From an uncultured Pirellulaceae bacterium (lineage in GTDB: Bacteria; Planctomycetota; Planctomycetia; Pirellulales; Pirellulaceae): DNA of 64,000 nt. Below the pieces are notes generated by a model, which was given only the letters and a program-made list of their open reading frames with translations, searched no databases and was not told where the DNA came from. The translations under genes and the position numbers were made by a program. The stretch spans positions 62,001 to 126,000 of the forward strand of contig CALDHM010000005.1 in NCBI GenBank assembly GCA_937941455.1, given 5' to 3'. This document shows, piece after piece, positions 4,791-15,429 of this stretch; positions within the stretch are counted from its first letter, which is position 1; every line of letters starts with the position of its first letter.

Positions 4791-7010
4791 ATGACATCGA
4801 TCCCCAAGACCACGACTGCCGACAACGCCATCGCCTGGGTGCGATCGCGACTGTCCGCGCTGCGCTGGCAACTCCGGTGGTGGGTTTCGGTGCATGGCCT
4901 TGGCCGCTGGCTCTGGGTGGTCCTGGCGATCTTATTGGCGGATATGGTGCTGGACCGCTTCTTCAAAATGGACCTGCCCCAACGGTCCATCATGTTGATC
5001 GTGATGGTGGCAATCGCGGGTTACATCTTGTTTCGATCGGTGATCAAGCCGTTGCGCAGGAAGGTCAGCGACCTGGGGTTGCTGCACGAGGTCGAGCGGC
5101 AGCATCCCGCGCTCGATCAGAGCTTGATCTCGAGTTATCAGCTCGCTCAGGAACGCGATCTCGAATCGCGGGGCGTTTCGCCAACATTGGTACAGTCAAC
5201 GGTGCACCTGGGTCTGAACCAAGCGAGGTCGGTCGATTTCGCTGCGATCTTCAATCGGCAACAGACGTGGCGCGATGCCTTGATCCTGGCCGCGGGAATC
5301 CTGGCGGCCGCGGGGCTTGTCGTGGGATCGTTGACCAATGACTTTTTGCGTACTTGGTCGCGGCGAAATCTCTTGTTGACGGGCGATCGTTGGCCCCAAG
5401 TGACCAATCTCGAGATTGTGGGAGCTAGCGATGGTCGCATTGTGGTCCCGATCGGCACCGATTATCGGCAACTGGTACGCGTGACTGAAAATAGCTCCGT
5501 GACGAACGTGGAAGTCACGCTCGAAGCGGAGCATGCCGGCAACCGCACACTGCAGAAGATGCGACCGACAGGGCGAGAGTCGGGGCGGGAACATGTTTTT
5601 ATCTTTCACAGCATCGCAACCCCCTACCGCATTCGAGCCAGTGGAGGGGATGCCGTCACCGATTGGGTTGAATTCCAATTGGTCGAACCGCCGGCCGTTC
5701 TACAGATGGAACTCGTCGAGCACCTCCCCGCCTACACGGGGCGCGACCCGACTCCCCTCAGCGGCAGCGGGCCCCATCGCATCCTCGACGGCAGCCGCGT
5801 GCAAGTGAATCTCACAACCAACAAACCGGTTGCCGTTTGCGAACTAAAGCATGACCAGCGCTCGATCGCATTCTTGGAGCCTGTCGACGAAACCCGCATG
5901 CGTTTTCAGACCTGGCTGGATAAAACCACGGGCACTTTGCTGGGAGGAAAATACTCGATCGGGTTGATCGATGACTCGGCGCTGGCCAATATTCGCGACT
6001 TTCATTTCGTGCTCCGCAACAGCGAGGACAAACCGCCGGCGGTCCGCGCTCGAACGCTCGGAATCAGCGGTCTAGTCGTTCCGCGGGCGGTTGTCCCCGT
6101 CGAGTATTCTGTGGAGGATGACTATGGCCTGATCCGTTTGGCGTTCGAAACGGCCTGGGTCAATGACGATGCCAGCCAGAAATCGGAAGCGAATTTTCCC
6201 GTGACGACTTGGCCGAACCGCCCCCCAGTGGCTGAAGCGGAAGATGTCGCGGTGCTCGAACTTGAGCGCCTGAAGCTGACGCCGGGAACCAGTTTGCGGT
6301 TCGCGCTCGCCGCCGATGATCATCAGCAACCTGCCGCGACGGGCCGCAGTCGAGAATTTTTGATTCGAATCGTGTCCGAGGAAGAATTGCGGGCCGATTT
6401 GTTGCGCCGCGAGATCGAGCAACGGAAGTCGTTCCAGCAGGCGTACGACGCCCAGATGAACTTGATTGCCGAGGTTCGCCAAGTGGCCGCCATCCCCAAC
6501 GAAGGGGGCACTGCGGAGCAGATTCGCGAACGCATGCAAAACGCATTGGTCAACTTGTTCCGGTCGCAGCGCGGAATTGGGACCAGCGTCAATCTGATCG
6601 CCAAACGCTTCGAAGAATTTCTGGTCGAGGTCCAGAACAATCGCCTGGACGAAGAAACGGCCAAAATCGACCCCGCAAGGACGATTCAAAACCGCTTCGA
6701 GCGCGAGATCATTGTGCCGATCCGGAACATGGACAACGGGCCCATTGCGGATGCTGCTCGCACGCTCGATCTGTGTCGTCGGCATATCGACCAAAGCGAG
6801 CCGTTCCGAGCGGCCATCAGCCAAACTTTGGAAATCCAAGAACAGATTCTCGAACAAATGCGTCAAATTTTGGCGGCCATGGAATCGTCGGAAACTTTCC
6901 AAGAGATGGTGAACCGGCTCCTGGAAATCAAGCGGATCGAGGAATCGCTGCGCAAACAGTTGGACGGCAAGGGGAATCTCAAAGGGATCTTTGATGATTC
7001 ATCGAAATGA
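4791..7010 (+). CDS. DUF4175-like membrane protein with C-terminal coiled coil
   Basis: 739 residues. Three hydrophobic helices lie in the first 180 residues (about 38-57, 65-85 and 156-180). A beta-rich extracytoplasmic region follows (about 200-500), then a long charged helical tail rich in Glu, Gln and Arg that is likely coiled coil. The gene starts 27 bases after the VWA gene, and its end overlaps the reading frame of the next gene, so it is part of the same operon. Proteins of this shape in planctomycetes are often annotated DUF4175 or hypothetical. Family membership is suggested by topology rather than by a catalytic motif; no enzymatic motif is visible. Inference: a structural partner of the VWA and coiled-coil proteins encoded on either side. 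Confidence 0.65.
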   Translation: MTSIPKTTTADNAIAWVRSRLSALRWQLRWWVSVHGLGRWLWVVLAILLADMVLDRFFKMDLPQRSIMLIVMVAIAGYILFRSVIKPLRRKVSDLGLLHEVERQHPALDQSLISSYQLAQERDLESRGVSPTLVQSTVHLGLNQARSVDFAAIFNRQQTWRDALILAAGILAAAGLVVGSLTNDFLRTWSRRNLLLTGDRWPQVTNLEIVGASDGRIVVPIGTDYRQLVRVTENSSVTNVEVTLEAEHAGNRTLQKMRPTGRESGREHVFIFHSIATPYRIRASGGDAVTDWVEFQLVEPPAVLQMELVEHLPAYTGRDPTPLSGSGPHRILDGSRVQVNLTTNKPVAVCELKHDQRSIAFLEPVDETRMRFQTWLDKTTGTLLGGKYSIGLIDDSALANIRDFHFVLRNSEDKPPAVRARTLGISGLVVPRAVVPVEYSVEDDYGLIRLAFETAWVNDDASQKSEANFPVTTWPNRPPVAEAEDVAVLELERLKLTPGTSLRFALAADDHQQPAATGRSREFLIRIVSEEELRADLLRREIEQRKSFQQAYDAQMNLIAEVRQVAAIPNEGGTAEQIRERMQNALVNLFRSQRGIGTSVNLIAKRFEEFLVEVQNNRLDEETAKIDPARTIQNRFEREIIVPIRNMDNGPIADAARTLDLCRRHIDQSEPFRAAISQTLEIQEQILEQMRQILAAMESSETFQEMVNRLLEIKRIEESLRKQLDGKGNLKGIFDDSSK

Positions 7011-7044
7011 ACCGCATCGCGAATCAACGCCTGTGAGGTGCACT

Positions 7045-9075
7045 ATGCATGCTCGTATCGTAATGGTCGGGCTCCTGTTGAGCTTGTTTGGACTGGGGCA
7101 TCCCATCAAGTCCATCGCACAGCCGCCGCAGACTCCGGCGAAAGACCCAGCTGGTGACGTCAAGAGCGTTCTGGGGGAACGCCAACGGCTCGTCGAGCGG
7201 AAGATGAGCGAGCTGGAGGCCCGTTTTGCGGCCATCGCCGAGCAACTTCGCGAAAGGGAGCCCGAGCGAGCCAACCGCTTGGTCGCCGCCTATCAGCGGG
7301 CCAAGGAAACGTTACTCACCGAACGGATGGCCCGAATCTCGCAACTGATCGATCAGGGGCAAACCGGCGAGGCCCTCGTGCTTCTCGATCAGGTGATCCT
7401 CTCGCTCGACGAGCTCGTCAAGATGCTCGTGGATACCCGCGGCAATCAGCTGGACCGCCAGCAAGAAATCAAAATGCTCGAAGAATGGCAGAAGGAGATT
7501 CGCCAAATCCAAGCGGAGCAGCAGAAGGAAAGTCGTGAGACCGAAAACGTCTCGCAGAAGGACGCAGCGCTGCAGCGTCTCGATGCTCAAATCAAGGAAT
7601 TGGAGAACTTGATCGGGCGGCAAAAAGACCTGCGCGAAAAAACGCAAGGTGCCGCCGGCTCGGGCCTGCGGGCGCTCGACAAAATTGCCGACGAGCAGTT
7701 CGAGGTCCGCAAACAGACCGAAAAATTATGGCGCGATGTGGCCGGACAACTGCCCGGGGAAGCGGAAAAACGCGCGGACATCAACGCCGGTGCAGAGCAA
7801 CCGAACCAGGGCAAACCGGCGGATCAAAATGCTCCCCAGAAAACTGGCGATGGAAAATCATCCTCTGGCGACGCGCAGCCCGGTAAGCAAAGAAGTGGTG
7901 ACAACCCGAATCCGCCGAATCCCACCGGCAATCCCTCTGCCGAGAACCCCGTAGTCTCACCCGCTCCTGGGCAAAAGCCTTTGCAACAAGCCGAGCAGGC
8001 CCAACGCCGCGCCGAGGAAAAACTAGCCAGCGGCAAATCTCTCGACGCGGAGCGGCAACAGGATCAGGCCATCAAGAGCATGGAGGAGGCGAAGTCGGAA
8101 CTCGAAAAAGAAAAACGGCGGATCGCCTCGCTGCCTCCAGAGGCCCTCAAACAAATCGCCCAAAATCAAAAGCGGCTGCGCGACAAATCCAGGGAAATCG
8201 CCCAAAAGATGCGCGACGCCCCCAAGCCGAAGCCCAATCCCGACCAAGAGTCGGCGGGAAACAACCAGCCCCAGCAACCTGGCCAACAATCGATGAACGA
8301 GGCCGGCGAGTCGATGCAGAAAGCGACCAATGACCTCAATCAAGACAATCCCGAAGACGCTGGCAAAAACCAAAAAGAAGCCGAAAAAAACCTGCAAAAG
8401 GCGCTCGACGAAATCGAGGAACGCCTCAGCCAGCTGCGGGAGGAAACCCGCGAGGAGAAACTGGCTCGCCTCGAGTCCCGCTTTCGCGAAATGCTCGATC
8501 GGCAAAAGGTCGCCAGTACGATGACCATCGAGTTGGACGATCGCCGGAACAGCTTTGGCAAATTCGAGCAACGCGACCGGCTGGTGTTGATCCGCCTGGC
8601 CACGGAAGAAACAGAAATCAACGAAATTGGCCAACAGGCTTATGATCTGCTGCTGGAGGATGGTACCAGTGTGGTTTTTCCTGAAATCGTCTACCACCTC
8701 AAGAACGATCTGCTCCGCGTCAGCCAACTCCTGGCGTCAGAAAAGACCGATCAACTGACGCAAATGATCCAACGCGACATCGAATCCAACCTCGAGGAGT
8801 TGCTGGACGCTCTCAAGAAAGCCAAAAAGAAAGGCGGGGGCGGGGGCGGTGGAGGTGGCAGTTCAAAACAACCGCTTCTCGAAAAATCTGCCGAATTGAA
8901 AATGCTCCGCGCGGCCCAACTGCGCATCAATCGCCGCACAAAACAAATCGATACGCTCCAGGCTGAGCGAGGTGCGGACGCCGATTTGGCTCGTGAGGCG
9001 GAAAACCTTTCGCAACTCCAGGCGCAATTGCTGGAGATGGCCGAGCGAATCATGGCGGCCGATGACGATCAATAG
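7045..9075 (+). CDS. secreted coiled-coil protein of the VWA operon
   Basis: 676 residues from the ATG at 7045. That start is preferred to the in-frame ATG at 6991 because it begins directly with a signal peptide (MHARIVMVGLLLSLFGLG, ending near SIAQ). The mature protein is almost entirely charged helix: long coiled-coil stretches rich in Glu, Lys, Gln and Arg, a low-complexity Pro/Asn/Gly-rich linker around residues 255-330, and a run of nine glycines followed by SSKQP near residue 595. It is the last gene of the operon begun by the PQQ-like and VWA genes. No enzymatic domain is seen. It may be an elongated periplasmic scaffold, which is inference from composition and context. Confidence 0.65.
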   Translation: MHARIVMVGLLLSLFGLGHPIKSIAQPPQTPAKDPAGDVKSVLGERQRLVERKMSELEARFAAIAEQLREREPERANRLVAAYQRAKETLLTERMARISQLIDQGQTGEALVLLDQVILSLDELVKMLVDTRGNQLDRQQEIKMLEEWQKEIRQIQAEQQKESRETENVSQKDAALQRLDAQIKELENLIGRQKDLREKTQGAAGSGLRALDKIADEQFEVRKQTEKLWRDVAGQLPGEAEKRADINAGAEQPNQGKPADQNAPQKTGDGKSSSGDAQPGKQRSGDNPNPPNPTGNPSAENPVVSPAPGQKPLQQAEQAQRRAEEKLASGKSLDAERQQDQAIKSMEEAKSELEKEKRRIASLPPEALKQIAQNQKRLRDKSREIAQKMRDAPKPKPNPDQESAGNNQPQQPGQQSMNEAGESMQKATNDLNQDNPEDAGKNQKEAEKNLQKALDEIEERLSQLREETREEKLARLESRFREMLDRQKVASTMTIELDDRRNSFGKFEQRDRLVLIRLATEETEINEIGQQAYDLLLEDGTSVVFPEIVYHLKNDLLRVSQLLASEKTDQLTQMIQRDIESNLEELLDALKKAKKKGGGGGGGGGSSKQPLLEKSAELKMLRAAQLRINRRTKQIDTLQAERGADADLAREAENLSQLQAQLLEMAERIMAADDDQ

Positions 9076-9284
9076 AATCCAAAAATTGCCGCGGCGAGCG
9101 AGATGGTTTATAACCAAGGCGGCGACGGGTGGTACGCTGGCAATGCCGCAGGATGGTTGGCGGTGATGTGGTGAACACGCTGTAGCCAATGTTTCGCTTG
9201 CGGAGCAATGCAGGTGCCGTTGGGGACCTGAACCAGTACGGTCAGCGGCCGTAAGTCGATGTGAACGTTTTGAAGGTGTTTTTT

Positions 9285-9430
9285 CTCGTAGCCCGCCGCG
9301 TTAGCAAGGGGAATTTGGGAGCTCGTAGCCGCAGTGAGTTTCCCTCGCTGACGCGTCGGGCTGCGGGGTTTGTCATTGCTTACGCTTCGGCCTGGGGATT
9401 TTTCCCTCGCTGACGTGTCGGGTTACGAGC
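9285..9430 (+). repeat. dispersed repeat family D, cluster of three related units
   Basis: The 457-base gap between the envelope operon and the hydrogenase operon holds no convincing gene. It contains inverted and direct copies of a short element: one unit reads CGTAGCCCGCCGCGTTAGC, and two others contain TTCCCTCGCTGACGCGTCGG (about 9350) and CCCTCGCTGACGTGTCGGG (about 9406). The opposite orientations would allow large hairpins. Elements of this CCCTCGCTGACGCGTCGGG type are, from general knowledge, abundant in Rhodopirellula-like genomes. Copies related to this one occur at about 25796, 45964 and 59202. Confidence 0.65.
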
Positions 9431-9532
9431 ATGCCGTTGCTGGCGAGTCGGATCGCGCTTTTTTCTGTGAAAACGGCATTGTCGCTACGCCGTTGGAAGG
9501 GGAGCGACGGCTCCAGCAGAGGGTTTTCGAAC

Positions 9533-10030
9533 ATGTCGCAAGAATTGTCTGAATTCGATTTCTGCCGGGGACTTAGCGACACCAGCCGTATTCGTTTGGC
9601 GGAGTTGATTTCCCCCGTTGAACTGGGTGAGCATCAAATCGTCTTTCGCACTGGCGATCCTGCGGAAAACAGTTATCTGATTGCGGATGGTTTGGTAGCG
9701 CTGGAGATCTGCGCCCCGGGCGTTGGCTGCCGACGCATGATGACGGCCGGGCCGGGCGAATTGATCGGTTGGTCGCCGCTGGTGGAGGGGGCCCGTTATG
9801 CAGCGACAGCGCGGACGGTGGGCCGATGCCGTTTGCTAAAAATTTCCGGCTCCGCTCTGCGGCAGGCCTGCATGGCCGACTCACGTTTCGGCTTCGAAAT
9901 CATGCGGAGCATCGTGAACGTCCTCTCAACTCGGATCAATGCCGCCCGTCTGCAGTTGCTCGACATGTTCGGTCCTGAGGGCGTGGGCCAAGGGGGAGAA
10001 CCAGCTTCCGTCACTTCACCACGGGGATGA
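9533..10030 (+). CDS. cyclic-nucleotide-binding-fold (Crp-like) protein without HTH, leads hydrogenase operon
   Basis: 165 residues from the ATG at 9533, chosen because an AGAGGG ribosome-binding site lies 9 bases upstream and the longer frame adds only a non-homologous extension. Residues 10-125 form a cupin/CNMP beta-barrel like that of Crp/Fnr proteins (ELGEHQIVFRTGDPAENSYL, then GPGELIGWSPLVEG). The protein ends after the long C-helix (about residue 150), and the winged helix-turn-helix of true Crp/Fnr regulators is missing. The stop overlaps the hydB start (ATGA), so it is coupled to the hydrogenase genes. It is therefore more likely a small-molecule or redox-responsive partner of the enzyme than a DNA-binding regulator; that is inference. 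Confidence 0.75.
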   Translation: MSQELSEFDFCRGLSDTSRIRLAELISPVELGEHQIVFRTGDPAENSYLIADGLVALEICAPGVGCRRMMTAGPGELIGWSPLVEGARYAATARTVGRCRLLKISGSALRQACMADSRFGFEIMRSIVNVLSTRINAARLQLLDMFGPEGVGQGGEPASVTSPRG

Positions 10031-11241
10031 TCATGGCCGACATCGACATCGGAAAGCGGTATTGGCTGGCCAAGCCTGCGTTCCAGAACTTGCTCGATGC
10101 CCTGCGTGAACTCGGCTATCAAGTCGTCGGCCCGACGATTCGCGATGAAGCGATCATCTACGGGCCGATCGAGCGTGTCGCCGAGTTGCCCATCGGCTGG
10201 TGGGACGATCAAGAGGGGGGGCGATACCGTCTGCGACAAGCTCCCACCGACGCATGGTTCGAATTCGTGGTCGGCCCGCAGTCGTTGAAGCACTATACGT
10301 TCCCGCCTCGGCAAACGGTGCTCGAAGGGAACCAACAAGCCGACGGCCAATGGAAACTGACGGCAATCAAGCCGGAGTCGCCGCCGACCGCGATTCTCGG
10401 CGTGCGGGCTTGCGATCTGGCTGCGCTGGTCATCCAAGACCGCGTCTTTCTCGGCTCGCAGTACCGCGATGAAAGCTTTGCCGCGCGGCGCGAGCGATTG
10501 TTTCTCGTCGCGGCGAACTGCCAGCGGGCGGCGCCGACCTGTTTTTGCAAGAGCATGAATTGCGGGCCGCGGGTGACACAAGCCTTCGATATGGCGCTCA
10601 CTGAAGGGGCCGATGGTTTTGTTGTTGAGGTCGGTTCGGCGGCTGGTGCTGCCGTGGCCGAGCGGTTGCCTTTGAAACTTGCGTCCCAGTCTCAGGTGAC
10701 ACAAGTCGAGCAGCGGCTCGCCGCGTTGATCGAGCAAATGTCGCAGGGCTCCGAGAGCCAAACATCGGCAGAGCCCGACTCCGCGCACCACAACGGCTGC
10801 CGATCCCAGCGGCAGCTGGACACCGCCGGGCTGCGCGATTTACTGTTTGGCAATTTGAATCATCCGCATTGGGATGAGGTGGCGAGTCGCTGTCTGTCAT
10901 GCGGGAATTGTACGATGGTCTGTCCCACGTGCTTTTGTAGCACCGTGGAAGAGGTTCCTCTGCTGGACGATTCGCAAGTCCTCCGCGAGCGCGTATGGGC
11001 ATCCTGCTTCACCAGTGAACATTCCTACATGGCCTCGGGCGTTGTGCGGCAGACGACCCGTTCTCGTTACCGACAATGGCTCACGCACAAGCTGGCGGGC
11101 TGGATCGACCAGTTCGGCGTGTCGGGTTGCGTCGGTTGTGGCCGTTGCATCACCTGGTGCCCGGTGGGTATCGATATCACGGCCGAGGTCGCCGCGCTCC
11201 GCTCGCCTCAGGAAATCGACAGGAGCAACGGCCATGAGTAA
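10027..11241 (+). CDS. hydB: [NiFe]-hydrogenase group 3b beta subunit, 4Fe-4S electron-transfer protein
   Basis: 404 residues; it resembles the beta subunit of soluble NAD(P)-linked hydrogenases (sulfhydrogenase I type) and the 4Fe-4S dicluster/coenzyme F420 hydrogenase-beta-like N-terminal region. Cysteine groups are visible at TCFCKSMNC (about residue 175), at [16 protein letters not shown] (about residue 292) and at [15 protein letters not shown] near the C terminus; the last two are ferredoxin-type [4Fe-4S] sites. It passes electrons between the gamma flavoprotein and the delta small subunit. The start overlaps the previous gene by 4 bases (an ATG 6 bases downstream is also possible), and its end overlaps hydG by 8 bases. 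Confidence 0.88.
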
Positions 11242-12082
11242 GAGCTGTGCGGCAACGAGAGTCTCGGATCACAACGCTTGGTTGCCCACAGAATTCCGCA
11301 TTGTCGCTCGACGGAATGAATTGGCCGATGTTTTCACGCTGGAACTGGCGGGGCCGGAACCGTTTCGGTTCGCGCCGGGGCAATTCAATATGTTGTACGT
11401 ACCGGGCTTCGGTGAGGCCGCCATCTCGATCAGCTCAGATTCTGATCGCCCAGAGCGTTTTCAACACACGATCCGCGTCGTGGGGAACGTGACGCGCCGC
11501 TTGCAAAAATTTTCCTCTGGTGACCGCCTGTTTCTGCGAGGCCCGTTTGGGACAGGGTGGCCCATCGATCGTTGCCCGAGCCGTGATGTGGTGATCGCCT
11601 GCGGTGGCCTGGGTTTAGCACCGTTGCGACCGGTCATCTACTACCTGTTGCATCGGCGGTCGCAATTCGGAGCGATTCATCTGCTGTACGGGGCCCGTAC
11701 GCCGCGAGATTTGCTGTATGCCGAGGAGTTCGCCGTTTGGCAATCGCAGGGTATTGAAGTGCGCGTCACGATCGATCGCGGCGACGAATCGTGGCGAGGC
11801 GCGATCGGTGTAGTCACTCAATTGATGAAACCCCTCCGTTGGCGACCCGAGTCGACCATGGTGCTGACATGCGGCCCCGAGGTGATGATGCGGTTCGTCG
11901 CCCAAGAGGCTCTCGCCCAGCAAGTTCGTCCCGATCATGTTTTCCTGTCGATGGAGCGGAACATGAACTGCGCGGTCGGTTGGTGCGGGCATTGCCAACT
12001 GGGCCCAAGCTTTGTTTGCAAGGACGGGCCCGTCTACACGTATGCCCAGATCGAACCGTTTCTGTATGTGGAGGACCTGTGA
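11234..12082 (+). CDS. hydG: [NiFe]-hydrogenase group 3b gamma subunit, FAD/NAD(P)-binding reductase
   Basis: 282 residues from the ATG at 11234, which has AGGAGC as ribosome-binding site and lies inside the end of hydB; a longer open frame upstream is only out-of-frame hydB sequence. The N-terminal half is a flavin-binding barrel of the ferredoxin-NADP reductase family (APGQFNMLYVPGFGEAAISI). A NAD(P)-binding fold follows (CGGLGLAPLRPVI). The C terminus carries four cysteines in MNCAVGWCGHCQLG plus FVCKDG, the [2Fe-2S] arrangement of PyrK-like subunits. This is the module that exchanges electrons with NAD(P)H. The stop overlaps the GTG start of hydD. Confidence 0.9.
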   Translation: MSKSCAATRVSDHNAWLPTEFRIVARRNELADVFTLELAGPEPFRFAPGQFNMLYVPGFGEAAISISSDSDRPERFQHTIRVVGNVTRRLQKFSSGDRLFLRGPFGTGWPIDRCPSRDVVIACGGLGLAPLRPVIYYLLHRRSQFGAIHLLYGARTPRDLLYAEEFAVWQSQGIEVRVTIDRGDESWRGAIGVVTQLMKPLRWRPESTMVLTCGPEVMMRFVAQEALAQQVRPDHVFLSMERNMNCAVGWCGHCQLGPSFVCKDGPVYTYAQIEPFLYVEDL

Positions 12083-12942
12083 GCCCACCGATTCCCGCAC
12101 CCGATGTGTTTCCGAACAAGTCGCCAGTTCCGGCGGAGCAATCCGGGAGTAACCGGCCGAAACTTGGGGTTTACAAATTTGCTTCGTGCGACGGCTGCCA
12201 ATTGGCACTGCTCAGCGTCGAGAACCATTTGCGACAACTGGCCGACTCGGTCGAGATTTGTTACTTTCTCGAGGCTTCATCGCGGATTGTGCCTGGTCCC
12301 TACGATATTGGCATTGTTGAGGGATCGGTCACGACGGCCCATGACGCCGAACGAATCCGCGGCATTCGCCGCGATTGCCGCTACTTGATTGCGATCGGGG
12401 CCTGTGCGACGGCCGGCGGCATTCAAGCCCTTCGCAATTGGGCCAACGTCGAGGAGTATTTGAGTTATGTCTATGCGGAACCGCAATACATCGATACCTT
12501 GGCAACCAGCACGGCGATTTCCGAACACGTGCCGGTGGATTTCGAGCTGCGGGGCTGTCCCATCGAGCCCCAACAGTTGCTCCGCGTCATCAGCGATTTG
12601 TTAGTCGATCGGCAGCCGCGATTGGCTCGGCATAGCGTGTGCGTCGAGTGCAAGCTTCGCCAGAACGTTTGCGTGGCCGTCGCCCGTGGAATTCCTTGTC
12701 TCGGTCCGATCACGCAGGCCGGCTGCGGGGCGATTTGCCCCTCGTTCGATCGCGAGTGTTTCGGCTGTTTTGGACCGCAAGAAAACATCAATGCCGCTAG
12801 CTGGATCGGACATTGCCGGTCGACCGATCACGCGACCTCGCGCTTGGTTCAACTGCTCCGCAACGTCAACAGCTACGATTCTCATTTTCGCGAGGCGGGG
12901 GATGGTCTGATCGCGAAGTCGATCTCGGTGGAGCCATCGTGA
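12079..12942 (+). CDS. hydD: [NiFe]-hydrogenase group 3b delta (small) subunit
   Basis: 287 residues from a GTG at 12079, which overlaps the hydG stop (GTGA). The small-subunit signature CDGCQLALL lies at residues 37-45. Further cluster ligands are seen at GACATAGG and GCPIEP, and in the C-terminal group CVECKLRQNVC, CLGPITQAGCGAICPS and ECFGCFGP. Together these can hold the proximal, medial and distal [4Fe-4S] clusters. No twin-arginine signal is present, so the enzyme is cytoplasmic, as expected for group 3. The gene ends 16 bases before hydA. Confidence 0.9.
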   Translation: MSPPIPAPDVFPNKSPVPAEQSGSNRPKLGVYKFASCDGCQLALLSVENHLRQLADSVEICYFLEASSRIVPGPYDIGIVEGSVTTAHDAERIRGIRRDCRYLIAIGACATAGGIQALRNWANVEEYLSYVYAEPQYIDTLATSTAISEHVPVDFELRGCPIEPQQLLRVISDLLVDRQPRLARHSVCVECKLRQNVCVAVARGIPCLGPITQAGCGAICPSFDRECFGCFGPQENINAASWIGHCRSTDHATSRLVQLLRNVNSYDSHFREAGDGLIAKSISVEPS

Positions 12943-12958
12943 CGATAAGTGAGTACGC

Positions 12959-14287
12959 ATGACTGAGGTGAGAAAATTCAGTGTCGGCGCTCTCACGCGC
13001 GTCGAAGGGGAGGGGGCTCTCGAGATTCACCTGCGAGGTTCGCAGGTGGAGCGAATCGAGCTGAGAATCTATGAGCCTCCTCGGTTCTTCGAGGCGCTGC
13101 TGCGCGGCCGCGACTTGCGAGAGGTTCCCGACATCGTGGCGAGGATCTGCGGGATCTGCCCAGTGGCCTATCAAATGAGCGCTTGCCAAGCGTTAGAAAA
13201 AGCCCTCGGCATGACGCTCCCCCCCGAGATTTCGCATTTGCGGCGATTGCTGTATTGCGGCGAGTGGATCGAAAGTCATACGCTGCACATGATCATGCTG
13301 CATGCCCCTGATTTTTTGGGCTTCGAGAATAGCCTTGAGATGGCGCGCAAGCATCCCGATTTGTTTGACAGCGGTCTGCGGATCCGCAAATTGGGTAACG
13401 ACTTGTTGACGATCCTCGGCGGCCGCGCTATTCATCCGATCAACATTGCGGTTGGCGGTTTTTATCGAACTCCGTCGGCGGAGCGGCTACGCGGGCTATT
13501 GCACGAAATCGTCTGGGCCAAAACGAAGCTGCCTGAGTTGTTGCGGCAGATGGCCGACTGGAACTTTCCACAATTTGAGCAAGACTATCAGTTCGTCTCC
13601 TTGCACGAACCCCACGAATATCCTCTGAATACCGGTTGCGTTGCCGCGTCGGATGGATTGTCGATACCGATCGAGGACTATGAACAGCATTTTCGCGAGG
13701 TACATCAGCCTCACAGCACGGCGCTGCAAAGCCTGCGCCTGCCGAGCCTGACGACGTACTTGGTGGGTCCGCTGGCTCGATTTCAATTGTGCCGCTCGCA
13801 ACTGACTCCTGCGGCTGCCAGTTTGGCGAACCAATTGCTCGGGTCTGTTCCGTTGCGAAATAATGCGTTCAGCCTTCTGGTGCGGGGGATCGAAGTGCTG
13901 TTCGCGATCGAAACCGCTGAGACATTGATCCGATGCTATCGGGATCACGGTTTTCCCTGCCGAGTCGAGATTCCTCGCCGCAGTGGCTGGGGGTGTCATG
14001 CCACCGAGGCTCCTCGAGGTCTTCTGTACCATCGCTATGAAGTTGATGAGCAAGGGCAGATTTCAACCGCTACCATTATTCCGCCCACATCGCAAAACCA
14101 AGCCCAAATCGAAAGCGACCTGCGGGCACTCGTCCCTTCTCTATTATCCGCCAGTGACGCCGAGGCGACGCGAGCCTGCGAGAATTTGATTCGTCACTAC
14201 GATCCGTGCATCAGTTGTGCGACACACTTTCTACGCGTTCGCTGGAGGCAAAACGGCACCCTGCGGCGCGAGGGTGAGCCGGTGTAG
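12959..14287 (+). CDS. hydA: [NiFe]-hydrogenase group 3b alpha (large) subunit, NiFe active site
   Basis: 442 residues. The L1 motif ARICGICPVAYQ places two active-site cysteines at 64 and 67, and the L2 motif DPCISCATH at 415-423 supplies the other two, so all four NiFe ligands are present. After the His of L2 a 19-residue tail remains (ending REGEPV); in many hydrogenases the tail after this His is removed by a maturation protease, and neither such a protease nor hyp genes are found in this window. The order CNMP-beta-gamma-delta-alpha and the soluble subunits fit a bidirectional NAD(P)-linked 3b enzyme. The 3b assignment is from gene order and motifs, not from a tree. Confidence 0.9.
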   Translation: MTEVRKFSVGALTRVEGEGALEIHLRGSQVERIELRIYEPPRFFEALLRGRDLREVPDIVARICGICPVAYQMSACQALEKALGMTLPPEISHLRRLLYCGEWIESHTLHMIMLHAPDFLGFENSLEMARKHPDLFDSGLRIRKLGNDLLTILGGRAIHPINIAVGGFYRTPSAERLRGLLHEIVWAKTKLPELLRQMADWNFPQFEQDYQFVSLHEPHEYPLNTGCVAASDGLSIPIEDYEQHFREVHQPHSTALQSLRLPSLTTYLVGPLARFQLCRSQLTPAAASLANQLLGSVPLRNNAFSLLVRGIEVLFAIETAETLIRCYRDHGFPCRVEIPRRSGWGCHATEAPRGLLYHRYEVDEQGQISTATIIPPTSQNQAQIESDLRALVPSLLSASDAEATRACENLIRHYDPCISCATHFLRVRWRQNGTLRREGEPV

Positions 14288-14356
14288 CGGGTTTAGCTCC
14301 CGCTGGATTATCCAGGATTATCAGTGCTCTACGGCGTGTTCCGTCTCCTTCCCGAT

Positions 14357-14396
14357 CGGGCCGACTCTCCCAGGGGGAGAGTGGAGAAGAGGATAT
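14357..14396 (+). repeat. dispersed repeat family C (GGGAGAGT hairpin type)
   Basis: A GC-rich element with GGGCCGACTCTCCCAGGGGG followed by AGAGTGGAG, which folds on itself (CTCTCCC with GGGGGAGAG). The same style of element recurs in most long gaps of the window, at about 21981, 23661, 23991, 32920, 37249, 44191, 48813 and 60250. Confidence 0.6.
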
Positions 14397-14418
14397 CGGT
14401 TTTCGTCAGGGCAGTCTT

Positions 14419-14511
14419 ACTTGTACTCAGTGCAACGGTACTCGTACTCGAAAGGATCGTACTCGTACTCGAAATGATCGTAGTGGCAGAATCGATCTTC
14501 GACCATGAGCG
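14419..14511 (+). repeat. dispersed repeat family A, copy 1 (GTACTCG type)
   Basis: The gap after the hydrogenase operon (14288-14616) holds no gene. Its main feature is an element whose first 42 bases (14419-14460) are identical to 21546-21587. A 21-base unit starting ACTCGTACTCGAAA is tandemly duplicated here (14440-14460 and 14461-14481) with one mismatch. A flank resembling that of the second copy follows (GCAGAATCGATCTTCGACCA). Confidence 0.8.
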
Positions 14512-14616
14512 ACTGTCCGCCGAACATTGCCGGAGGCAATGACAAGCAAAAGGGAGGAGTGCGTTGGGTAGAGGCCCGTTGATTGTTGATTGTTTCGCAG
14601 CCTTGATCCCTCTGTC

Positions 14617-15429
14617 TCACGCATTGAAGGTTTCGGGCTCGGCCGAGGAGATCCCGCGGATGTGGGGATTGTAATCTTCCCCCTCGTGCAGTTTGAGTTC
14701 TTGCGAAAAGCCTTCGCCGGCGACAACGATGATGTCGCCATCCGGGTCATCTTGCTCTGCCCGCACGTTGTGATGCCGCGTCAATTCGAGAACTGCCAAG
14801 AAGACTCCGATCATCGCCGACTTGTGCATCCCGGGCCGGAAGAGATCGCTGAAGACCACACGCTGGCGTTCGAGCAATTGGCGATGAATCTCTTTCATAT
14901 AGACCGTAATCGGTGTCTCGTCGTAGTACACCTTTTCTGGTTGCGAGCGGCGATTGTCGCGCAGTACGCGACCGAAGGCGCTGACGAGGTCCCACAGTTC
15001 CACCGTGCGGATCGGTTGCTCGGCCAGGTCGATAATGCGCGGCGGCAAGTCGTCTTGAATACGTGGAAATCGCTGGCGCCAAGCTGCGGCGCGTTCGTCG
15101 AGCAGAACGGCCGCTTCGCGGAAACTTTTGTACATCAGCAACCGCTGAACAAGGTCTTGCCGTGGGTCCGTGTAGACTTCGTCGGTTTCGGGAGTCGGAT
15201 CCTCGGGGAGTAGCAGTTTCGCCTTGATTTCGATCAACCGGCTGGCCACGTTCAAGAAATCGCCAACCGAATCGATATCGATTTCTTTGAGCACCTCGAT
15301 GTACTGCGAATACTGGTCCACGATTTTGGACAAGCCGATGGCGGTGATGTCGAGTTCGTTCCGCCGCACCAGGAAGAGCAGCAGGTCAATCGGTCCCTTG
15401 AATTCGATGGTTTCGACGCGAAAGCTCAT
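14617..15429 (-). CDS. scpA: segregation and condensation protein A
   Basis: 270 residues. The N terminus matches ScpA kleisins (FKGPIDLLLFLVRRNELDIT), followed by SRLIEIKAKLLLPED. A variable middle region and a C-terminal winged-helix-like part (SAMIGVFLAVLELTRHHNV) that would bind the SMC head complete the protein. ScpA bridges SMC and ScpB in chromosome condensation; neither smc nor scpB is in the window, so it stands alone here. Start is the ATG at 15429. Length is normal for the family. Confidence 0.93.
   Translation of the reverse strand: MSFRVETIEFKGPIDLLLFLVRRNELDITAIGLSKIVDQYSQYIEVLKEIDIDSVGDFLNVASRLIEIKAKLLLPEDPTPETDEVYTDPRQDLVQRLLMYKSFREAAVLLDERAAAWRQRFPRIQDDLPPRIIDLAEQPIRTVELWDLVSAFGRVLRDNRRSQPEKVYYDETPITVYMKEIHRQLLERQRVVFSDLFRPGMHKSAMIGVFLAVLELTRHHNVRAEQDDPDGDIIVVAGEGFSQELKLHEGEDYNPHIRGISSAEPETFNA

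Follow-up and report, generated by a model that had tools for sequence, protein, structure and literature searches.

The five-gene [NiFe]-hydrogenase operon at positions 9533-14287 of contig stretch CALDHM010000005.1 (64,000 nucleotides from an uncultured Pirellulaceae bacterium, assembly GCA_937941455.1; hereafter the window) is led by a small protein with a cyclic nucleotide monophosphate (cNMP) binding fold, which we call the companion. The companion has no DNA-binding domain, its cyclic-nucleotide contacts are replaced, and its gene lies among the structural genes of one clade of group 3b-type hydrogenases, with which it co-occurs and is co-inherited. Probably it regulates the enzyme from within and is not a gene switch. 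On balance we favour, at somewhat better than even chances, the view that it acts as a dimer on the HydBG electron-input module, as an accessory subunit that adjusts the enzyme in response to a ligand that is neither cyclic AMP (cAMP) nor cyclic GMP (cGMP). An earlier reading made from the letters alone (the sequence-only reading) had proposed that the protein may sense a ligand and act on the enzyme directly. This first hypothesis is sound and the arrangement is real and conserved; the mechanism remains an inference.

The five tightly packed genes all lie on the forward strand. First comes the companion gene (9533..10030, ATG start, 165 residues; Pfam cNMP_binding, 50.1 bits), encoding a barrel (strands at 9608..9847, residues 26-105) and a C-helix (9881..9970, residues 117-146) but no helix-turn-helix (HTH). 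It is followed by genes for a HydB-like iron-sulfur subunit (10027..11241, 404 residues; Pfam Fer4_22), a HydG-like FAD/NAD(P)-binding subunit with an iron-sulfur domain (11234..12082, ATG start, 282 residues; NAD_binding_1 and DHODB_Fe-S_bind), a HydD-like hydrogenase small subunit (12079..12942, GTG start, 287 residues; Oxidored_q6) and a HydA-like [NiFe] large subunit (12959..14287, 442 residues; NiFeSe_Hases). That these genes overlap or nearly touch, as had been noted before, was confirmed: the successive junctions are an ATGA overlap of 4 bases, an 8-base overlap, a GTGA overlap of 4 bases and a 16-base gap. An upstream in-frame ATG at 9431 would give an alternative companion of 199 residues; since the family profile match starts at about 9530, the ATG at 9533 was retained. 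As the five-gene set recurs across phyla, a chance arrangement is ruled out.

The AlphaFold2 model of the companion, based on an alignment of 62 family members, reached a pLDDT (predicted local distance difference test) of 92.9 and a pTM (predicted template modelling score) of 0.82. It consists of the barrel, the helix at 117-146 and a loose coil tail, and the sole Pfam match covers residues 29-115. Neither search nor model contains the C-terminal winged HTH that is the hallmark of Crp/Fnr regulators, which bears out the absence of a DNA-binding domain put forward in the sequence-only reading. The HTH is also missing from 67 further companions, taken from the best 80 loci discussed below; all 67 end within 25 residues of the matched domain, so the absence is a family trait and not a local truncation. 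Structural neighbours found with Foldseek and VIA-align are Crp/Fnr proteins and standalone domains. The best Z score belongs to 3mdp (Z 20.6, root-mean-square deviation 1.6 over 130 residues), which the family profile scores at 94.1 bits, while the two top Foldseek matches are chains of MtbCRP with cAMP. Phage records gave no match to the companion protein. In both class surveys described below, family membership was counted from 98 bits. Family members in 16 further genomes score above 125 bits and other domains below 70 bits; given that scores of 83-110 bits also occur in the acidobacterial class and that 3mdp lies at 94 bits, this threshold is a choice, and the score gap is not empty everywhere.

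The ligand pocket differs from that of cyclic-nucleotide sensors. In an alignment with MtbCRP and PKG, the Gly-Glu of the phosphate-binding cassette is changed into Gly-Trp in most rows. Companion position 80 holds W in 71, V in 6, A in 5 and F and L in one each of 84 sequences, and Glu in none; Arg is found at position 89 in at most 2 of 84. The latter position is mostly Trp outside the planctomycete gene order (48 of 61) and mostly Met within it (15 of 23), and the window protein itself carries W80 and Y89. The canonical Glu and Arg are thus both replaced, which makes the usual mode of cAMP or cGMP binding unlikely, and canonical sensing was disfavoured on these counts. A genuine sensor of cyclic nucleotides, coupling the hydrogenase to cAMP or cGMP, would fit the Pfam match of 50.1 bits and the two cAMP-carrying MtbCRP chains; with Glu in 0/84 and Arg in at most 2/84 we give this explanation very little credence. 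The sequence-only reading had listed a nucleotide among the possible ligands, and for a cyclic nucleotide that proposal is weakened.

Recurrence of the companion was analysed in named genomes, based on the best 80 loci of at least 571 relatives. Because the search patterns were derived from window-like sequences, the resulting count (67 of 80 loci with the companion) applies to this clade, not to 3b hydrogenases as a whole. The order is HydB-cNMP-HydG-HydD-HydA in 58 of these loci and cNMP-HydB-HydG-HydD-HydA in nine. The 13 loci without companion comprise eight of B-G-D-A order (one of which, L082, is cut in HydB), four on cut contigs, and L083, which yielded HydA alone. A full set of four subunit genes was detected in 75 loci, 67 of them with the companion; the contig starts inside HydB in five of the 75 (L076, L082, L097, L117, L118). 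Phyla with the companion include Pseudomonadota, Acidobacteriota, Chloroflexota, Planctomycetota, Bacteroidota, Actinomycetota, Deinococcota, Verrucomicrobiota and the archaeal Thermoplasmatota. Absence of the gene beside most 3b hydrogenases, an outcome that would have counted against the sequence-only reading, was not observed for this 3b clade, in which the companion is regular across phyla. The two Nitrospira genomes that lack it in their 3b operon (L088, L090) have no family member elsewhere either (best score 54 bits in one, no match in the other). A separate observation concerns the 3b locus of a Candidatus Brocadia genome (L118, 3684-6997), where about 3.3 kb separate HydD from HydA, through either an insertion or an assembly join.

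A HydA match above 300 bits was found in 19 of 60 genomes (own genome included). Among the other 18, the companion lies 5' of HydB in 13, is lacking in four (L047, L048, L051, L052) and cannot be read in one because the contig is cut (L035). HydB was not found at L047 and HydG not at L052, so these operons may be decayed. Across 397 genomes of the window's class, HydA is present in 107 and a strong companion (98 bits or more) in 120: 97 genomes have both, 23 only the cNMP protein, 10 only HydA and 267 neither (Fisher p 1e-57). The two genes lie within 8 kb of each other in 83 of the 97, and in 13 of the other 14 they are on different contigs. The pattern is repeated in 250 genomes of the acidobacterial class to which locus L105 belongs, with HydA above 600 bits in 40 and a strong companion in 42 (both 38, cNMP only 4, HydA only 2, neither 206; Fisher p 6e-38) and a distance within 10 kb in 37 of 38. 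A weaker HydA (359-391 bits) occurs in four more acidobacterial genomes; in three of them the companion search found nothing at the limit used, and in G489, the fourth, the match lies on a different contig. Since the genomes are related, the Fisher p-values overstate independence and are only a guide. Absences are approximate, because only the best candidates were scored per genome (nine for the companion and four for HydA in the window's class, where companion matches are complete down to 98 bits; 15 and seven in the acidobacterial class). The sequence-only reading had taken soluble hydrogenases to be unusual for this type of planctomycete. With HydA in 107 of 397 genomes this does not hold for the class, and rarity was rejected at that level; yet in the window's genus the four other genomes were all without a HydA match.

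Position and inheritance tie the companion to the enzyme. Where the common order occurs (58 loci), the companion gene has a median spacing of -4 bases to HydB as well as to HydG, with true overlaps in 34 and 35 loci, respectively. In these loci it thus sits within the block of structural genes, towards the HydB/HydG end. Start codons were picked by script for these counts. Of the nine loci of planctomycete order, L062 gave a value of -4197 that reflects a failed start search, and three of the other eight show an overlap. On the HydA tree (102 rows) the two gene orders require a single change, and order plus absence (60, 23 and 11 rows) requires six; these counts omit L035, L059, L082, L083 (uncut, with only HydA found), L086, L108, L114 and the HoxH outgroup. 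The companion tree likewise falls into these two main sets (SH-aLRT 85 and 88), its many weak forks being due to an alignment of only 136 columns. Distance matrices of the companion correlate with those of HydA (0.79), HydD (0.72) and HydG (0.71) about as well as these subunits correlate among themselves, and less with HydB (0.48). Tree agreement and correlations point to co-inheritance and are not proof of contact. As a proof of the docking partner the mirror-tree approach was uninformative.

Taken together, the following mechanism may be proposed. The operon would yield a cytosolic HydABGD hydrogenase linking H2 to NAD(P)(H). The 165-residue companion probably homodimerises through its C-helix and would dock on the HydB/HydG electron-input module. 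Its barrel may bind a small ligand other than a canonical cyclic nucleotide, with a pyridine nucleotide as first candidate by analogy with HoxI and a redox or gas ligand as second, and binding would adjust activation or coupling of the enzyme. It might also be argued that the protein is an assembly or stability factor, which lets HydB/HydG or the tetramer form or withstand oxygen, with no ligand-dependent role. The replaced cNMP contacts, the strongly conserved C-helix (signature residues R134, R139, Q141 and D144) and the place of the gene inside the operon fit such a structural role, whereas four-subunit operons without the companion and family members away from hydrogenases do not; we consider it unlikely, at perhaps one chance in a handful.

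Several observations weigh against the regulatory-subunit reading. Seven loci have all four subunits without companion (L061, L069, L088, L090, L107, L125, L133), so the enzyme can do without it. The distance correlations single out neither HydB nor HydG, evidence on the ligand is purely negative, and we found no biochemistry on the companion family in the literature. The main evidence against a hydrogenase-only role comes from copies without a 3b hydrogenase, such as those in the 23 of 397 class genomes where a family member occurs without this kind of HydA. These copies are scattered through both main sets of the companion tree. When 20 copies away from HydA were chosen for inspection, 18 had no hydrogenase gene nearby; HydB adjoins the copy at L159, and a HydG-like match (84 bits) lies on the other strand at L150. 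A gene of the pyruvate:ferredoxin oxidoreductase (PFOR) type is found near four of the 20 (L146, L148, L150, L153), and by tree path the window's companion is nearest to the PFOR-linked copy of L153. The proteins of L148 (7056-13278) were scanned and give the order PFOR, DHO_dh and CBS genes, companion; the PFOR neighbours at the other three loci were assigned through the same blastp cluster as the scanned protein. A universal stress protein gene, also scanned, lies near the copy at L145.

Given these neighbours, the companion might be a signalling protein of low-oxygen or fermentative metabolism and no subunit at all, contacting a Crp/Fnr regulator (for instance in heterodimers unable to bind DNA) or several redox enzymes. 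The planctomycete copies beside PFOR, at L148 with DHO_dh and CBS, or beside the stress protein gene, together with Crp-type proteins among the nearest folds, are in line with this. Two findings are not: in 58 of the best 80 loci the companion gene sits between those for HydB and HydG, tightly spaced on both sides, and it is co-inherited with HydA. We regard the signalling role as rather improbable. As an aside, L152 of genome G063 (6637-7617) carries a pair of neighbouring, divergent domains of the cNMP family, the second of which is part of an open frame of 489-510 residues.

A companion beside 3b hydrogenases is already in print; what this analysis adds is its breadth, its separation from HoxI, the lost contacts and the copies elsewhere. 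PMC12319191 places such a gene beside the 3b hydrogenase of 'M. acidophilus' 29 under the name HoxI, and PMC13332983 reports a protein with a cyclic nucleotide-binding domain from the 3b cluster of Rhodococcus equi 103S. For Cupriavidus necator, PMC3702609 describes HoxI as dimeric and attached to the HoxFU diaphorase, and reports that, of two recombinant enzyme versions, NADPH activated only the one containing HoxI; HoxI is also treated in PMC3189943, PMC12809855 and PMC7363133. Our comparison uses one HoxI sequence, from pHG1; only the two C. necator H16 records reached a coverage of 80% or more of HoxI. With the family profile the pHG1 HoxI obtains 47.8 bits, less than a Crp/Fnr regulator encoded on that megaplasmid (50.5 bits). 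In the companion tree it lies outside the family together with CRP of E. coli, and the placement of its long branch is unsure. It is without the C-terminal signature of the family and, by eye, keeps the Glu of the phosphate cassette. Judged on this single sequence, HoxI neither scores as a family member nor groups with the family apart from Crp/Fnr proteins.

If the companion were a direct orthologue of group 3d HoxI, it would be expected to share the NADPH-activation role, as the name used in PMC12319191 suggests. Size (165 against 167 residues), domain, lack of an HTH and association with a soluble hydrogenase agree with this; the 47.8 bits against members counted from 98 bits, the position in the tree and the missing signature do not. 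Orthology was rejected on profile and tree, with one HoxI sequence, and we hold it highly improbable. HoxI looks like an analogue of the companion, not an orthologue, and would thus stem from a separate recruitment. In the literature covered, which excludes most subscription papers, we found no statement separating the two. More broadly, and tentatively, at a little under even chances, the companions may form a distinct unnamed cNMP-fold family, free of DNA binding and of cyclic-nucleotide contacts, that serves as the ligand-sensing subunit of one large 3b clade in bacteria and archaea. The Crp-type fold would then have been recruited twice, to the unrelated diaphorase modules HoxFU and HydBG, and planctomycete copies would have passed to other redox enzymes such as PFOR.

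If the companion is a subunit, these 3b enzymes are missing their regulator whenever they are prepared or their structures solved without it, and calling it HoxI imports an NADPH role for which we found no test in this family. As the canonical contacts are gone, the family is a defined place to seek another cNMP-fold ligand linking redox state to H2 turnover. The set of HydABGD and companion is compact enough for expression and assay.

The hydrogenase itself is group 3b-type, which is well supported by database ranking and subunit make-up and agrees with the assignment in the sequence-only reading. In the PDB, HydA matches Sulfhydrogenase 1 subunit alpha best (207.5 bits, 3.8e-60), followed by the 'NiFe hydrogenase large subunit' of 7t2r (168.6), methyl-viologen-reducing (161.1) and NAD-reducing (145) enzymes, F420-reducing enzymes (128.1 or less) and periplasmic enzymes (97.8 or less). 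NCBIfam gives ShyA 262.2, HydA 223.1, VhuA 134.8 and FrhA 131.5 bits. ShyD ranks before HydD for the small subunit, HydB before ShyB for the iron-sulfur subunit, and for the FAD subunit a cytochrome-c3 hydrogenase gamma model comes first, then AsrB, ShyC and HydG. All subunits miss the equivalog cut-offs of sulfhydrogenases 1 and 2 (HydABGD, ShyABCD): ShyA 262.2 against 700 bits, sulfhyd_HydB 143.5 against 750 and sulfhyd_ShyD 162.7 against 460. The placement follows from this sulfhydrogenase-first ranking and from the complete subunit set encoded together, HydB (4Fe-4S), HydG (FAD/NAD), HydD and HydA; the HydA tree held HoxH as single outgroup. HydA residues C64, C67, C417 and C420, which we take to be the Ni-site ligands, are invariant in 13 aligned sequences. 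No maturation protease gene adjoins the operon, and the own genome has one HycI-type and one HypD match, both on contig C4 in the locus of a second, group 1-like [NiFe] hydrogenase (L053, 5204-15649), which comprises small and large subunit, maturation protease, HypC, HypD and HypE. Around the operon, Rfam gave zero matches over window positions 8900-14800. The sequence TCCCTCGCTGACGCGTCGGG is present twice ahead of it (9341-9360 and 9403-9422, with 0 and 1 mismatch; chance expectation 0.02 in the window), and a period-21 tandem repeat of 2.1 copies, GTACTCGTACTCGAAAGGATC, lies 3' of HydA at 14438-14482.

Compared with known systems, the window operon has the same four subunit types and domains as the group 3b sulfhydrogenase SHI of Pyrococcus furiosus (HydBGDA), but differs from SHI-type systems by the extra cNMP gene and by scores under the NCBIfam equivalog cut-offs. 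To our knowledge, the four-gene P. furiosus operon is without a cNMP gene. Crp/Fnr regulators (MtbCRP, GlxR, DNR) and the standalone domain Gmet_1532 (3mdp) have barrel and C-helix in common with the companion; it lacks the HTH of the regulators, and its C-terminal signature and replaced ligand contacts set it apart from regulators and 3mdp alike. HoxI of C. necator HoxHYFUI2 (group 3d) resembles the companion in being small, of cNMP fold and free of an HTH, and in having its gene beside those of a soluble NAD(P)-linked hydrogenase. Its partner module is HoxFU, of the Complex I kind, whereas that of the companion would be HydBG, and by profile and tree the one HoxI sequence falls outside the companion family. 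The 3b clusters of 'M. acidophilus' 29 and R. equi 103S show the same association with a cNMP gene as the window operon. Rhodococcus and Burkholderia plasmid loci have the order HydB-cNMP-HydG-HydD-HydA, with HydB first, whereas the planctomycete clade of the window has cNMP-HydB-HydG-HydD-HydA.

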